In this document: one piece after another, positions 5,110 to 12,429 of the stretch
Layout of the letters: each line of letters begins with the position of its first letter
Numbering within the stretch: the stretch's first letter is position 1
DNA from: Bacteroidales bacterium
GTDB lineage: Bacteria; Bacteroidota; Bacteroidia; Bacteroidales; VadinHA17
DNA: 64,000 nucleotides
Assembly (NCBI GenBank): GCA_003141895.1
Contig: PLNT01000007.1
Span: forward strand, 247,889-311,888
Direction of reading: 5' to 3'
Position numbers and translations under genes: made by a program
The notes under the pieces: model-generated
Databases searched by the model: none
What the model saw: the letters and a program-made list of their open reading frames with translations, nothing else
What the model was told of the DNA's origin: nothing

Positions 5110-6279
5110 ATGGCATTGAATGTAGACTATATTGAAAATGAAATAATTGACCAATACTTGTTTGATGAAAATCCAACGCGACCATGGATTATTGGATTTA
5201 GTGGGGGGAAAGACAGTACAATGCTCTTACAAATTGTCTGGAATGCTTTAAAAAGAATTGATCCAATCCTTCTTACAAGAAAAATCTATGTGGTATGTAA
5301 TGATACGTTGGTGGAGAATCCCAGAATTGTAAAATTTATTAATACTACTTTAAGAAAAATACAGGAAGCAGCTAATTTGCAACAAATCCCATTGTTTGTT
5401 CAACAAACGACACCAAGACTGGATGATACCTTCTGGGTGCGATTAATCGGATTGGGCTACCCCGCACCTAATAAATTTTACAGATGGTGTACTGACCGAA
5501 TGAAAATCACCCCAACAACTCGCTTAATTGTTGAAAAAATTGCAGAAAATGGGGCAGCAATTATTCTATTAGGTACTCGCTCCGCTGAAAGTTCTACTCG
5601 TGCAGCTTCAATGAAGAAGCATGAGATAAAAGGTCAACGGTTGCGGAAACACCAACTTCCTAATGCTTATGTATATGCACCTATAAAGGATGTTTCCACC
5701 AACAATTTGTGGCAATATTTAAACCAGGTTCCTCCTCCCTGGGGTGGAAACCATAAAGAATTGGTGACTCTTTACAGAAATGCCAGTTCCGGAGACTGCC
5801 CTCTGGTAATTGACAGTACAACTCCAAGTTGTGGAAATAGCCGGTTTGGTTGCTGGGCTTGTACAGTTGTTCAAAAAGACAGGAGCATGGAAGGATTGAT
5901 AGACAATGGAGAAGAATGGATGCTCCCATTGGCAGAAATAAGAAACTTTCTTGTCGAAACTAGAGATAATCCGGAGATATACAGGGAAAAGCGCAGACGT
6001 AACGGGGAGATTGTTGAAAAATACTTCAGCGAAAGTTATGATGATACAATAACAAATGGAATTGCCTTGTGTCCTAATCTTCACAGAGCGTTTGACCGAG
6101 GATTAATTACTATTGATAACAACTACAAAGTAATTGTTTCAAAAACATTCAAAGAGGATGAAACAAATTACAGCATTCGTATTTTTGAAAACCAACAAAT
6201 CTTTTTGCCGAAGCAAGAAATACATTTTCCGCTAATAGATAATTTTAGCTGGCATAGAAGAAAGATATTCAAAGCATAG
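5110..6279 (+). CDS. dndC: DndC-like phosphorothioation sulfurtransferase fused to the C-terminal half of an HNH endonuclease
   Basis: Residues 1-300 match DndC, the ATP-pyrophosphatase/iron-sulfur protein that activates the DNA backbone for sulfur insertion: PP-loop SGGKDST (31-37), a cysteine in YRWCTDRMK (Cys127) and the cluster Cys241, Cys248, Cys251 (CGNSRFGCWAC), and the DndC-type YREKRRRNG at 291-299. From about residue 305 the protein changes: SESYDDTITNG and CPNLHRAFDRGL (307-332) are the Asn/second-His half of an HNH_2-type nuclease, followed by its usual tail. The first catalytic His and its AHIVP context are missing, so the nuclease is probably dead. The DndC part also stops well short of the usual ~450-550 residues. 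The simplest reading is an in-frame deletion fusion around 6010-6027. The next gene remnant starts 7 bases later. Confidence 0.8.
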   Translation: MALNVDYIENEIIDQYLFDENPTRPWIIGFSGGKDSTMLLQIVWNALKRIDPILLTRKIYVVCNDTLVENPRIVKFINTTLRKIQEAANLQQIPLFVQQTTPRLDDTFWVRLIGLGYPAPNKFYRWCTDRMKITPTTRLIVEKIAENGAAIILLGTRSAESSTRAASMKKHEIKGQRLRKHQLPNAYVYAPIKDVSTNNLWQYLNQVPPPWGGNHKELVTLYRNASSGDCPLVIDSTTPSCGNSRFGCWACTVVQKDRSMEGLIDNGEEWMLPLAEIRNFLVETRDNPEIYREKRRRNGEIVEKYFSESYDDTITNGIALCPNLHRAFDRGLITIDNNYKVIVSKTFKEDETNYSIRIFENQQIFLPKQEIHFPLIDNFSWHRRKIFKA

Positions 6280-6286
6280 AACCAAA

Positions 6287-6406
6287 ATGGAAATCATCTA
6301 CATATTCCTTTCAGTTATTACGATTCTCCTTATCATAAACATCATTCTTACTTTTAAAACAGGTGGGAAATGCAGGAATGAATTAGCTGAAATAAAAATT
6401 CATTAA
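6287..6406 (+). pseudogene. Truncated rmuC start (39 codons)
   Basis: A 39-codon frame starting with ATG encodes a hydrophobic helix and ELAEIKIH before TAA. Its DNA is nearly identical to the start of the intact rmuC at 7283: the stretch GATTCTCCTTATC(A/G)TAAAC and the following ATCATTCT(T/C)ACTTT align almost base for base, and NELAEIK matches NELSEIK in RmuC. It therefore looks like a second, broken rmuC 5' end lying just before the BRO/DinD-like gene. It is too short to work as RmuC, although it could still be translated as a membrane peptide. Confidence 0.8.
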
Positions 6407-6437: not shown

Positions 6438-7268
6438 ATGGGCTACGTAAAACTATTTGAGCAAAAGGAAATCCGTTCGTTATGGAACGAAGAAGAACAG
6501 AAATGGTATTTCTCTATTGTAGATATCGTAGCAATATTAACAGATAGCCCTAATCCTCAAGTGTATTGGAGGGTAATGAAAAAAAGATTGAAAGACGAAG
6601 GCAACGAAACCGTTACAAATTGTAACGCTTTGAAAATGCAGGCTCCTGATGGTAAAATGAGACTGACTGATGTTGCCGATACAGAGCAACTTTTAAGGCT
6701 TATCCAATCCATCCCGTCACCAAAAGCTGAACCCTTTAAGCAATGGCTGGCAAAAACAGGATATGAAAGGATGAAGGAAATTGCTGATCCAGAACAAAGC
6801 CTGGACAGAGCAAGAGAAAATTGGCAAAAACACGGTCGAAGCGAAAAATGGATTCAGCAACGCATGACTGGTCAGGAAACCCGAAACAAGCTGACAGATT
6901 ACTGGAAACAAAGCGGAGTGAAGAAGTCGGACGAGTTTGCTTTTCTGACAAACATTATCCATCAGGAATGGACTGGATTGACAGTAAAGAAACACAAAGA
7001 TTTAAAAGGGCTGAAAACACAAAATCTTCGTGACCACATGAGTGAAGCAGAACTCATTTTTACAGCACTTGCCGAACTCTCTACACGTCAGATTGCAGAA
7101 ACCGATGAAGCCAAAGGCTTAAAGCAAAATGCGACCTCCGGGAAAAAAGGAGGAAGAATCGCTAAAAATGCCCGTTTAGCATTAGAACAAAAGACAGGAA
7201 AAAATGTCATTACCTCTGATAATTTCCTGCCTCCTGCCAATGAGAAAAAGAAAATTTATAAAAAATAA
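6438..7268 (+). CDS. BRO-N / DinD-like damage-inducible or antirepressor-like protein
   Basis: A 276-residue soluble protein. The N-terminal ~115 residues have the BRO-N pattern (KEIRSLWNEEEQKWYFSIVDI, with YWRVMKKRL and MRLTDVADTEQLLRLIQSIPS), shared by phage antirepressors and baculovirus BRO proteins that bind DNA. The C-terminal half (EFAFLTNIIHQEWTGLTVKKH, LRDHMSEAELIFTALAE, SGKKGGRIAKNARLALEQ) is the DinD-type region; E. coli DinD is an SOS-induced inhibitor of RecA filaments of similar length. It lies between the rmuC remnant and intact rmuC, 14 bases before the latter. A role in DNA-damage response is inferred. No phage genes are nearby. Confidence 0.78.
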   Translation: MGYVKLFEQKEIRSLWNEEEQKWYFSIVDIVAILTDSPNPQVYWRVMKKRLKDEGNETVTNCNALKMQAPDGKMRLTDVADTEQLLRLIQSIPSPKAEPFKQWLAKTGYERMKEIADPEQSLDRARENWQKHGRSEKWIQQRMTGQETRNKLTDYWKQSGVKKSDEFAFLTNIIHQEWTGLTVKKHKDLKGLKTQNLRDHMSEAELIFTALAELSTRQIAETDEAKGLKQNATSGKKGGRIAKNARLALEQKTGKNVITSDNFLPPANEKKKIYKK

Positions 7269-7282
7269 TCTCAAGAGCAATC

Positions 7283-8773
7283 ATGGTACAGTATTTCATT
7301 CTTGCCCTTCTTGCGATTCTCCTTATCGTAAACATCATTCTCACTTTAAAAGCAGGCAAAGATGGTTCTGGTAATGAATTGTCTGAAATAAAAGATTCAA
7401 TAAATTCACTTGTACAAACCCTTAAAGTCACCGAAGCAAATTTAAAAGGTGAGTTTGCAACAAACAGAAAAGAAAACTCAGATAATGCAAAAGGATTGAG
7501 AGAAGAAGTCAATAATCATTTAAACACTTTCACTAAAACATTTTCAGACCAACTAACTACCCTAACCAACTCAGTGGCTGAAAAATTTACTGTATTCCAG
7601 AACAGTATTGACTCAAACAATAAGGATAGCCGCAAAGAACTTAAAGAAAATCTTGAAGCATTTAAAAATGAATTGAATATTGCCTTAAAAGATTTCAAAG
7701 AAAACATCAGAGATAGCTTTTCTGATTTCAACAAGCAACAACAAACTCAGAATTTTGTAAACACCGAAAAACTGGATGGATTGAAAAAAACATTGGAATC
7801 CTCCATCAAAAATTTACAGGACGGTAATGAGAAGAAGCTGGAAGAAATGAGAAACACCGTTGATGAAAAGTTGCAGAAAACTCTGGAGACAAGATTAACC
7901 CAATCATTTGAAATTGTGAGCAAGAACCTGGAATCGGTACAAAAAGGGTTAGGAGAAATGCAACAACTTGCAACCGGAGTTGGTGATTTGAAAAAAGTTT
8001 TAAGCAATGTTAAAACAAGAGGGATTTTAGGTGAATTGCAATTATCAAATATTCTCGAACAATTACTTTCACCGGAACAATATGAAATAAATGTCATTAC
8101 TAAAAAAGGAACAACCAACCGGGTTGAATTTGCAATAAAAATACCACAGCTTAATCAGGAAAATAAAGTACTGTTAATGCCCATCGATTCTAAGTTCCCT
8201 ATAGAAGATTATTATACACTCTTGACTGCGTATGATACAGGAGACACGTCATCTATTGAGGTATCGGGTAAGGCGTTGGAATCAGCAATTAAAAAAGCTG
8301 CTAGGGACATCCATGATAAATATATTGATCCACCCGACACGTCTGAGATAGGATTGCTTTTTTTGCCAGTCGAAGGATTATATGCCGAGGCTGTTCGAAG
8401 ACCCTCCCTGATTGAAACTCTTCAAAGAGATTTTCAGGTAATAATTACGGGTCCTACTACATTATCAGCAATTCTCAGCACAATCTCCTTTGGTTACAAA
8501 ACAATGGCAATGGAACAAAGAAGTGGTGAAATTAAAAGGACTTTAAGCGCAGTAAGAACGGAGTTTAACAAGTTTGGGGACGTCTTAAAAAAAGCCAAAG
8601 ATAAAATTGACAAAGCAAGTGAGGATATAGATGAATTGGTTGGAGCCCGTACAAGAAAAATTCAGTCAAAACTTAAATCATTTGATGAGTTACCAACCTC
8701 AGAAGTTAAATTGATTTTAGAGACAACCACAGAACCCGATCCGGCTGAAGAAACTAAAGATGATAAGGACTAA
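7283..8773 (+). CDS. rmuC: DNA recombination protein RmuC
   Basis: A 496-residue protein with an N-terminal membrane anchor (about residues 4-22), a long coiled coil (about 30-225) and the RmuC nuclease-like domain (about 235-430), including LGELQLSNILEQLLSPEQYE, MPIDSKFPIEDYYTL and IGLLFLPVEGLYAEA. E. coli RmuC limits recombination at inverted repeats and is related to the PD-(D/E)xK nucleases. Length and domain order are normal for the family. It follows the BRO/DinD-like gene by 14 bases and its stop overlaps the end of the convergent cysteine desulfurase by 4 bases. The same start sequence is duplicated about 1 kb upstream. Confidence 0.93.
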   Translation: MVQYFILALLAILLIVNIILTLKAGKDGSGNELSEIKDSINSLVQTLKVTEANLKGEFATNRKENSDNAKGLREEVNNHLNTFTKTFSDQLTTLTNSVAEKFTVFQNSIDSNNKDSRKELKENLEAFKNELNIALKDFKENIRDSFSDFNKQQQTQNFVNTEKLDGLKKTLESSIKNLQDGNEKKLEEMRNTVDEKLQKTLETRLTQSFEIVSKNLESVQKGLGEMQQLATGVGDLKKVLSNVKTRGILGELQLSNILEQLLSPEQYEINVITKKGTTNRVEFAIKIPQLNQENKVLLMPIDSKFPIEDYYTLLTAYDTGDTSSIEVSGKALESAIKKAARDIHDKYIDPPDTSEIGLLFLPVEGLYAEAVRRPSLIETLQRDFQVIITGPTTLSAILSTISFGYKTMAMEQRSGEIKRTLSAVRTEFNKFGDVLKKAKDKIDKASEDIDELVGARTRKIQSKLKSFDELPTSEVKLILETTTEPDPAEETKDDKD

Positions 8774-9948
8774 ATCATATTCTTTAATTCTTTGACCCGC
8801 TTTTTTATTGCTTCAATAGTTATTTCAATTTCAGCCCTGGTATTCTGTTTTCCCAGACTAATCCGTATGCTACTAAAAGCATCATTTTCATTTAAACCCA
8901 TAGCTGTTAGAACGTGACTGGGTTCTATCGAGGAAGAGGTACATGCGCTTCCATTACTAATAGCAATCATTGGGAATTCATCTTCAGGATTGCTTAATCC
9001 CATGATTAAAGCGTCACTATCGACACCCTGAAAGCAAATATTTAATGTGTTAAACAATCTTTGTTCTTTGTTCCCATTGATCCGGGTATTCTCAATAGAT
9101 AATAGTTTATCTTCCAAAAGATTTCTTAAATCAGCAACTTTCCTGGAAGTGCTTATCATTTCTTTTTTTGCTAAATCACCGGCAACCCCAAGAGCAACAA
9201 TTCCGGGTACATTAAGTGTCCCGCTTCGGATACCTCTTTCATGTCCACCCCCATGTAATAATGCAGGAATTTTTATCCGGTTATTTCTTTGCCTTATAAA
9301 TAATGCACCAATTCCCTTAGGAGCATATAATTTGTGCCCGCTAATACACATCAGATCAATCCCGGATTCATCAATGTTTACTGGAATTTTCCCAATTGCC
9401 TGGGTTGCATCAGTCATAAAAATTGCACCTGCAGAATGAGATAGTGCAGCAACTTCTTTTATAGGCTGCAGAACGCCAGTTTCATTATTTGCTAACATAA
9501 CGGACACAAGAATTGTCTCCTCTTTTAAAGCATTCCTGAGCTCTGATAAATCAATTAAACCATCTGACCTGACAGACAAATATGTTACTCTGTAACCTCT
9601 GGATTCAAGATATTTACAAGTATCAAGAATAGCTGGATGTTCAGTGGCGACGGTTATAATATGTTTTCCTTTTGAAAAGTAGTTTTCTGCGACACCTTTA
9701 ATTGCAAGATTTATGGCTTCTGTAGATCCGGAAGTAAAAATTACTTCGCTGGTTTCAGAGCCAATTAAATCAGCGATTTTGCTTCTTGCTAACTTTACCG
9801 CTTCATAAGCTTCAACACCAAATTTATGTGTACTGTTTGCGTTGGCGTAATTGGTGGTAAGATATGGCATCATAGCCTCCAACACACGTTCATCAATAGG
9901 TGTAGTTGCATTATTGTCAAGGTAAATTATCTTTTTTCCGGAATCCAT
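8770..9948 (-). CDS. Cysteine desulfurase (NifS/IscS/DndA-like)
   Basis: A 392-residue class V PLP enzyme that removes sulfur from cysteine and passes it on as a persulfide. Visible motifs are the N-terminal YLDNNATTP, TSGSTEAIN (71-80), His104 in ATEHPAIL, the PLP lysine Lys206 in SGHKLYAP, and the catalytic Cys336 in NGSACTSSS. All are intact, so it should be active. In phosphorothioation loci a cysteine desulfurase (DndA or IscS) supplies sulfur to DndC, and its position beside the dndC-like gene and rmuC supports that link. However, no SufS/IscU scaffold genes are near, and a housekeeping role is not excluded. It is convergent with rmuC. Confidence 0.93.
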   Translation of the reverse strand: MDSGKKIIYLDNNATTPIDERVLEAMMPYLTTNYANANSTHKFGVEAYEAVKLARSKIADLIGSETSEVIFTSGSTEAINLAIKGVAENYFSKGKHIITVATEHPAILDTCKYLESRGYRVTYLSVRSDGLIDLSELRNALKEETILVSVMLANNETGVLQPIKEVAALSHSAGAIFMTDATQAIGKIPVNIDESGIDLMCISGHKLYAPKGIGALFIRQRNNRIKIPALLHGGGHERGIRSGTLNVPGIVALGVAGDLAKKEMISTSRKVADLRNLLEDKLLSIENTRINGNKEQRLFNTLNICFQGVDSDALIMGLSNPEDEFPMIAISNGSACTSSSIEPSHVLTAMGLNENDAFSSIRISLGKQNTRAEIEITIEAIKKRVKELKNMI

Positions 9949-11454: not shown

Positions 11455-12429
11455 ATGAAGCCTCCTTACCAGATAACAAATAAAATTATCGAGTTAATTG
11501 CTTCAATTTCTGAAAAAATTGGAGAAGTAAATTCTGCTCATTTATACAGACCACCAACTGAATTAAGAAAAAAGAACAGAATCAAAACAATTCAGTCTTC
11601 CTTGGAGATTGAAGGAAACACTCTTTCTATCGAACAGATAACTGCGATTTTAGAGAATAAAAAAGTTGTTGCGCCTAAAAAAGATATTCTAGAGGTAAAA
11701 AATGCAATTATTGTTTACGACAAACTCGCAGATTATAAACCATATAGTTTAACTTCTTTCTTTAAGGTTCATGAGATTCTTATGAAAGGACTTGTTGACA
11801 ATCCAGGCTGTATCAGAAGTAAATCTGTTGGGATTATCAAAGGTTCGGTAATAACACATGTAGCACCTCCAGGCAACATAGTTCGTTCATTATTGAAAGA
11901 CTTATTTGACTATCTCAAAAAAGACAAAGACCTACTTCTTATTAAAAGTTGTATCTTTCATTATGAGGTAGAATTTATCCATCCATTTATTGATGGAAAT
12001 GGAAGAATGGGCCGACTTTGGCAAACAGTACTTCTGAGACAATATTCCCCGGTCTTTGAGTTTCTTCCTGTTGAATCTTTAATAAAGGCAAAACAAGAGG
12101 AATATTACAGAATTCTTGGAGAATCTGATAATCAAGGAGATTCAACTGGATTTGTGGAGTTTATGCTTCAAATCATTAATGACTCGCTTGAGAATTTATT
12201 AATCAACCAAAATGTGAACCTTACAAGTGAGGACCGGATAAATATCTTTAAAGAAAAGGCAGGATCTGATTCATTCACAAGACAAGACTACATGAGACAA
12301 TTTAAGGATATTTCATCTGCTACTGCCAGTCGAGATTTAAAAGAAGCAGTTGACAAAGGGACCTCAGAAAGGACCGGTGACAAAAGGACTACACAGTATA
12401 GATTTAAAAATAAAAAACATCAGTTTTAA
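11455..12429 (+). CDS. Fic-family AMPylase with N-terminal inhibitory motif and C-terminal winged helix
   Basis: A 324-residue protein. The Fic core has the full active-site loop HPFIDGNGRMGRLW (His at about residue 178), so AMP transfer to protein hydroxyls is expected. An N-terminal helix carries SSLEIEGN (about residues 49-56), fitting the [S/T]xxxE[G/N] inhibitory motif of class II Fic proteins, in which the antitoxin-like helix is built in. The C-terminal ~70 residues (SFTRQDYMRQF, SATASRDLKEAVDKG) form a winged-helix DNA-binding region. Together with the palindrome just upstream this suggests autoregulation. The RDD membrane protein follows after 13 bases. Confidence 0.9.
   Translation: MKPPYQITNKIIELIASISEKIGEVNSAHLYRPPTELRKKNRIKTIQSSLEIEGNTLSIEQITAILENKKVVAPKKDILEVKNAIIVYDKLADYKPYSLTSFFKVHEILMKGLVDNPGCIRSKSVGIIKGSVITHVAPPGNIVRSLLKDLFDYLKKDKDLLLIKSCIFHYEVEFIHPFIDGNGRMGRLWQTVLLRQYSPVFEFLPVESLIKAKQEEYYRILGESDNQGDSTGFVEFMLQIINDSLENLLINQNVNLTSEDRINIFKEKAGSDSFTRQDYMRQFKDISSATASRDLKEAVDKGTSERTGDKRTTQYRFKNKKHQF

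Follow-up and report, generated by a model that had tools for sequence, protein, structure and literature searches.

An open reading frame joining dndC to the end of an SBD-HNH nuclease gene in a Bacteroidales genome: a probable deletion scar at a dnd locus

The stretch of DNA analysed here (the window, 64,000 nucleotides) carries an open reading frame which is derived in front from dndC and at the back from the gene of an HNH endonuclease with a sulfur-binding domain (SBD-HNH). The features of this part of the window are the following.

5110 to 6279, plus strand: fusion open reading frame of 389 codons, open throughout; front from dndC, back from an SBD-HNH nuclease gene
5110 to 6024, plus strand: DndC-derived part, codons 1-305, with PP-loop and four cysteines; C-terminal third gone
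6022 to 6028, plus strand: fusion joint, dndC codon 305 (TAC) against nuclease codon TTC, about 1-2 bases probably shared
6025 to 6279, plus strand: nuclease-derived tail, codons 306-389 and stop, with Asn316 and His325; no first His and no sulfur-binding domain
6287 to 6406, plus strand: cut-off 5′ end of rmuC, 39 codons plus stop, located behind the fusion and ahead of the DinD-like gene
6438 to 7268, plus strand: DinD-like Bro-N protein, PADLOC PDC-S13 (PF02498 48.5 bits; PDC-S13 426.6 bits), at the same position in locus L088
7283 to 8773, plus strand: RmuC-family protein, with near full-length matches in loci L012 and L088
8770 to 9948, minus strand: cysteine desulfurase of the DndA/SspA type (PADLOC SspA 540 bits, DndA 539 bits)

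In the fusion, DndC residues 1-305 run in frame into the C-terminal 84 residues of an SBD-HNH nuclease. The two halves were aligned separately to DndC (TIGR03183) and HNH_2 (PF13391), and each passed the cut-off of its family. Residues 14-306 matched TIGR03183 with 390.5 bits (cut-off 290.4), the match breaking off at profile position 301 of 447; the PP-loop motif begins at residue 31 and cysteines 127, 241, 248 and 251 were all found, in agreement with what an earlier note on this DNA had read from the letters alone. That note had also taken the tail from about residue 305 as the half of an HNH_2 nuclease which holds the Asn and the second His and lacks the first, and this is borne out by profile positions 36-66 of 66, which correspond to residues 306-336 (32 bits, cut-off 21). 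The HNH triad is incomplete, N316 and the second His (H325) being there and the first His (H233 of the intact relative P0121) missing. The name HNH_2 holds as a profile match but is too broad, as the intact relatives carry an N-terminal sulfur-binding domain; tail residues 311-388 align with positions 206-284 of the 284 positions of NF045808, named phosphorothioated-DNA-binding restriction endonuclease, with 54 bits, below the whole-protein cut-off of 180.

The closest intact DndC is P0002 (440 aa), which shares 304 of 307 positions with the fusion; of the three differences, two fall at the joint, and residues 1-305 differ once, which makes the break look recent. Among intact nucleases, P0121 (320 aa) is the closest found, its residues 237-318 being 87.8% identical to the tail. 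The tail begins at P0121 residue 237, that is, past the sulfur-binding domain, which the window protein therefore lacks. The first proposal, that dndC is fused in frame to the 3′ part of an HNH_2 nuclease gene, is thus upheld, and a full-length, nearly identical DndC exists. The switch point after residue 305 is the F of the nuclease 'VPF' motif. At the joint site the dndC relative L014 reads GAAAAATACTGGGG and the nuclease relatives L086-L088 read GTGCC[T/A]TTCAG; only 1-2 bases are common as judged from these relatives, so a long repeat seems not to have driven the event.

The C-terminal part of DndC, the predicted DndD binder, is incomplete in the fusion, while intact P0002 runs to residue 440. 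In E. coli, DndC residues 433-482 and the last helix are predicted to bind DndD, with pull-down support described in PMC12193691. The fusion would then be without the DndD-binding C-terminus of DndC and without both the sulfur-binding domain and the first catalytic His of the nuclease. Remnants of dndD and dndE were searched in the window and nothing above chance was found; the genome of the window (96% complete, draft, 46 contigs) gave no DndD match, and no DndE match in a search that had no positive control. The structure model of the fusion (pLDDT 52.9, from a mixed alignment of 31 sequences) was uninformative in either direction.

An assembly artefact joining two loci could be suspected in a draft genome of 46 contigs, but it is extremely improbable: the frame runs uninterrupted inside a contig of 393,831 bases, and the protein record holds one sequence on 10 contigs, the longest of 394,106 bases, so a one-off assembly error is unlikely. 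Some of these 10 contigs may perhaps be assemblies of one population.

It had been left undecided at first whether the fusion is a relic or a protein with a new role, and of the two the relic is preferred. A working protein, such as a PP-loop enzyme of the DndC type that binds DNA through its HNH-derived tail, would suit the open frame, the intact PP-loop and cysteines and the occurrence on 10 contigs. It is nevertheless very unlikely, as the genome has no DndD match (nor a DndE match, in the search without control), the part of DndC predicted in PMC12193691 to bind DndD is gone, the HNH half has no first His, and no second fusion was found in the best 120 of 1487 junction matches; with 1 difference in 305 residues the fusion is also too young for selection to be visible. 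Besides the absence of another protein with both parts from those best 120 matches, a motif check of 319 proteins found the two combined in P0001 only; DndC does not, as a rule, end in this tail. The search for the undeleted locus and for other copies yielded the intact DndC P0002 and, among the relatives listed, no further fusion. A family of functional fusions was considered as a separate candidate and judged unlikely on the same counts.

The intact nucleases were characterized through P0121. A profile built from 27 of its relatives matched the SBD structure 8h0l with an E-value of 1.9e-17. The SBD fold was modelled for one nuclease, P0121 itself (AlphaFold, pLDDT 75.1, with residues 211-254, most of the HNH core, poorly modelled), and Foldseek with this model placed SBD-bearing structures at all of ranks 1-14 (8h0l, 7ccd, 7cc9, 5zmm, 5zmn, 7ccj), ranks 1-2 having E < 0.001. 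The sulfur pocket of ScoMcrA is described in PMC6224610 as lined by H116, R117 or Lys, and P165; these residues seem to correspond to the APHKP and LPF stretches of the P0121 clade, which are conserved in 8 of 8 dndC-linked nucleases, and the residues of both the pocket and the HNH triad are retained in all eight. The intact relatives scored 75-118 bits on NF045808 in 5 of 5 scanned, all below the cut-off of 180, and a Pfam scan of three nucleases and an NCBIfam scan of five gave no SRA domain. Nucleases of this clade are predicted to be phosphorothioate-dependent cutters. Compared with the known SBD-HNH endonucleases (SprMcrA; NF045808), P0121 shares the SBD fold and the pocket residues and the fusion tail corresponds to the 84 residues at the C-terminus of an enzyme of this kind; the difference is that the fusion has neither SBD nor first His and that the intact relatives stay below the NF045808 cut-off.

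The loci of relatives were collected by a scan with the fusion protein, which gave 79 loci. In close Bacteroidota relatives such as L010 and L012 the order is dndC, dndD, a protein of about 520 aa and more genes, with dndA often following on the opposite strand. The dndD product of this type has 698 aa and lies above the TIGR03185 cut-off, and the protein of about 520 aa after it has an N-terminal DndE match whose 45.8 bits fall short of the TIGR03184 cut-off (71.85). Eight loci (L016, L020, L035, L061, L071, L086, L087, L088) have an SBD-HNH gene at the dnd locus in the same orientation as dndC; these eight were collected using patterns from the fusion itself, one of the six patterns coming from the nuclease part.

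In seven of the eight, no more than about 35 nt separate the nuclease start from dndC or what is left of it, and in two of these the genes overlap. Cecembia (L016), Aquiflexum (L020) and a Saprospiraceae genome (L035) have a full-length dndC and no dndD or dndE, the nuclease standing in the place of dndD. Flavobacterium restrictum (L061) has dndC residues 1-338, the nuclease, dndD residues 288-696 and dndE, and its nuclease carries a stop located after the triad. The exception to direct adjacency is L071, with full-length dndC, three genes, the nuclease and then a dndE scrap. In the other three the dndC match ends at residue 238 (L086), residue 54 (L087, where the stretch is also interrupted by a stop) and about residue 24 (L088), and the similarity between these nucleases begins at each nuclease's own start, which is where the dndC match ends. 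L086 starts within dndC at the contig end, and its dndC, at 53% identity to P0002, is by this measure a different dndC lineage.

The eight loci were compared with the other 71, of which 9 having less than 2.2 kb behind dndC were set aside, leaving 62 testable. Intact dndD was found in none of the eight, and a dndD match downstream in 60 of the 62 (three of the 60 spanning less than 300 of 698 residues). The Fisher p-value is 5e-9, and 2e-6 when only the five nuclease loci with at least 338 dndC residues are counted; both serve as a guide only, the loci not being independent draws. A genome-wide DndD search (E <= 1e-10) gave no match in seven of the eight nuclease genomes and, in the last one, nothing but the dndD fragment. 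L086 and L087 are short contigs, and several of these genomes may be incomplete. All three dnd-bearing controls, among them the genome from which the query was taken, were matched by this query, and a DndD as diverged as the dndC of L071 (43%) might evade it. The two testable loci without dndD match and without nuclease (L082, L083) both have truncated dndC.

These two loci form an observation of their own. Their dndC matches (L082:458-748 and L083:10001-10366) end at residues 91 and 126 with no SBD-HNH gene, and in L082 the truncated dndC is followed by large unrelated ORFs of 861, 1130, 781 and 474 aa; dndC 5′ ends may be marks of other replacements too.

The reading which we prefer, with a probability of about two in three, is that the fusion is an inactive scar of a deletion of about 1.1 kb, at a locus where a predicted phosphorothioate-cutting nuclease had probably already replaced dndD and dndE. 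A dnd island (dndC, dndD, dndE, others, and dndA at the end) would have been entered beside dndC by an SBD-HNH gene. The nuclease and dnd would normally be incompatible, as the nuclease would cut the phosphorothioated DNA of its own host, and the survivors would be cells without dndD and dndE, often without part of dndC, so that the locus would flip from writing the mark to cutting it. The orphan dndC would then be free to decay, with which the full-length dndC retained in four of the eight nuclease loci (L016, L020, L035, L071) is at odds if plain decay is meant. Finally, in the lineage of the window, a later deletion would have abolished both activities. It would have begun at dndC codon 306, removing the rest of that gene (codons 306-440), and have ended after nuclease codon 236, with nuclease codons 1-236 lost; measured on the spacing in L016 and L020, this comes to about 1.1 kb. 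The reading frame would have survived by chance, about 1 in 3. The matching deletion in the L016/L020 spacing is 1141 nt, which is not divisible by three, so the spacing between dndC and nuclease in the parent must have differed from theirs; the state of the locus ahead of the deletion is reconstructed from the relatives.

The earlier note had supposed that dndD and dndE lay between the two genes and were lost in the same deletion. This part of the proposal is not supported, as the nuclease is directly behind dndC or its remains in seven of the eight relatives, so a deletion of about 1.1 kb is enough and intervening dndD and dndE are not required. The corresponding explanation, a complete dndCDE operon before the nuclease and a single deletion of more than 3 kb that took away the 3′ end of dndC, all of dndD and dndE and the start of the nuclease gene, is unlikely. 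SBD-HNH genes do sit beyond dndD/dndE in Poribacteria and Chloroflexota (L055, L060, NZ_CP128401), and three other genes separate dndC from the nuclease in L071; the distant genes, however, are on the opposite strand, so that no simple deletion could bring them into one frame with dndC, and in seven of the eight same-strand loci the nuclease follows dndC or its remains directly.

Two published views exist of SBD-HNH genes near dnd. In one they are possible partners (PMC10853773), and in the other they should coexist only with a dnd system that is dead or of different specificity, the rare cases of neighbourhood being explained by one partner which is mutated, inactive or of other sequence specificity (PMC7461809). 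The eight loci fit the option of a mutated dnd cluster. A partnership, in which the SBD-HNH protein is the restriction arm of Dnd and the broken loci reflect unrelated decay, appears improbable here. It draws on the 698 taxa with wHTH, SAD and HNH in a Dnd locus, read in PMC10853773 as possible restriction components, and dnd genes with a convergent SBD-HNH gene do exist; against it, none of the eight dndC-linked loci of the tail's clade has an intact dndD, yet their nucleases retain pocket and triad residues. Were this the decay of a partner, the modification genes would not be expected to be the only ones hit. In the Bacteroidota clade from which the fusion tail comes, the count of 0 of 8 linked loci with intact dndD favours displacement over partnership. 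It is still less probable that DndC and SBD-HNH make a working two-gene system without DndD and DndE, of which the window fusion would be a single-chain form, and we give this very little weight; it takes its support from the full-length dndC directly ahead of the nuclease in Cecembia, Aquiflexum and the Saprospiraceae genome, in none of which DndD was found.

Coexistence is seen with more distant genes on the opposite strand. L055 and L060 have such SBD-HNH genes in the vicinity of dndC and dndD, with 32% and 26% identity to P0121, and in L054 one of 34% identity lies near dndC, where the sequence behind dndC is too short for a dndD call. Plasmid NZ_CP128401 (Chloroflexota) has annotated dndB, C, D and E beside a convergent HNH gene which matches P0121 from SBD to HNH at 32%; the genes at NZ_CP128401:314917-322044 (L142:5918-13045) face each other as a natural test of coexistence. 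The exclusion rule is thus limited to the P0121 clade and to the same orientation.

Published systems offer several likenesses. In Streptomyces, ScoMcrA and dnd together are described as killing the host, being mutually exclusive, and the cells that survived either no longer had the dnd island or had defective dnd genes (PMC3009677); the nuclease there is apart from the dnd island, whereas here it is inside the dnd locus, mostly at the dndD position and in several Bacteroidota lineages. The wHTH(SBD)-SAD(SRA)-HNH proteins described in PMC10853773 likewise have an HNH nuclease and a phosphorothioate-binding domain coded in the dnd locus, and differ in that the scanned relatives here have no SRA domain and the adjoining dndD is broken or missing. 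The front of the fusion resembles DndC (TIGR03183) in being above the cut-off over residues 1-305, with PP-loop and four cysteines, and differs in ending at profile position 301 of 447, with the part predicted to bind DndD absent and no DndD found in the genome. Among the papers listed by literature searches, no title or abstract opening described dnd displacement by SBD-HNH or the fusion.

The point of interest is consequently the recurring displacement of dnd by a predicted phosphorothioate-dependent nuclease, the fusion itself being probably a scar. We infer that the SBD-HNH gene has repeatedly ousted the dnd modification genes; if true, the dnd locus is a site where a lineage can switch from writing an epigenetic mark to cutting it. 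Displacement can be tested in the named strains Cecembia lonarensis LW9, Aquiflexum lacus CUG 91378 and Flavobacterium restrictum LB1R34.

The wider distribution was also surveyed. DndC above the cut-off occurs in 1 of 62 genus genomes, namely the window's own. In a phylum sample of 395 genomes, SBD-HNH (E <= 1e-20) was found in 22 and DndC above the cut-off in 10, the window's own genome being in both counts; only this genome and one other (G165) were in both lists, numbers too small for testing avoidance, and none of the 21 other nuclease genomes of the sample had dndC within about 1.5 kb of the nuclease. Viral contigs held no confirmed relative of P0121, phages one weak record (24%) and plasmids 12 records, all below 60% identity. 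The fusion protein matched 2153 plasmid records, all below 60% identity; in 20 of these the match covers 80% or more of the protein.

Movement of the nuclease is indicated by synonymous differences between L016 and L020, which are 0.80 in dndC and 0.25 in the nuclease; the common ancestor of the nucleases is thus younger than that of the neighbouring dndC genes, and the nuclease has moved separately. The dndC value of 0.80 is saturated, may predate the arrival of the nuclease and is silent on present dndC function. DNA similarity ends 1 base behind the nuclease, and beyond it the contents differ: PDC-M23A/B in L016, JetABCD in L020 and DinD-RmuC in L088 and the window. In L020 (12315-18935) a complete JetA-B-C-D set stands between the dndC-nuclease pair and dndA, at the place of dndD/dndE. 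We infer that the stretch from dndC to dndA acts like an exchange site for defence genes.

The order in L088 (nuclease, DinD, RmuC, DndA fragment) is the downstream order of the window. Window positions 6284-6397 are 75% identical to the start of rmuC in L088 (12056-12172), so the window has a truncated rmuC copy at 6287-6406 besides the complete rmuC at 7283-8773, which points to an earlier insertion or partial duplication; the copy records a further rearrangement at the fusion site. Of 60 genus genomes, 4 encode the RmuC-family protein, the window's own among them. The protein of 8770 to 9948 is 55-69% identical to the minus-strand DndA genes behind dndC in Bacteroidota loci, and a DndA-type gene occurs in 4 of 60 genus genomes (E <= 1e-100, own counted), the other three being 44-47% identical; it is probably the remaining end gene of a former dnd locus. 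Downstream of it, at 11455-12429 of the window, lies a gene for a Fic/DOC family protein (PF02661, 63 bits).
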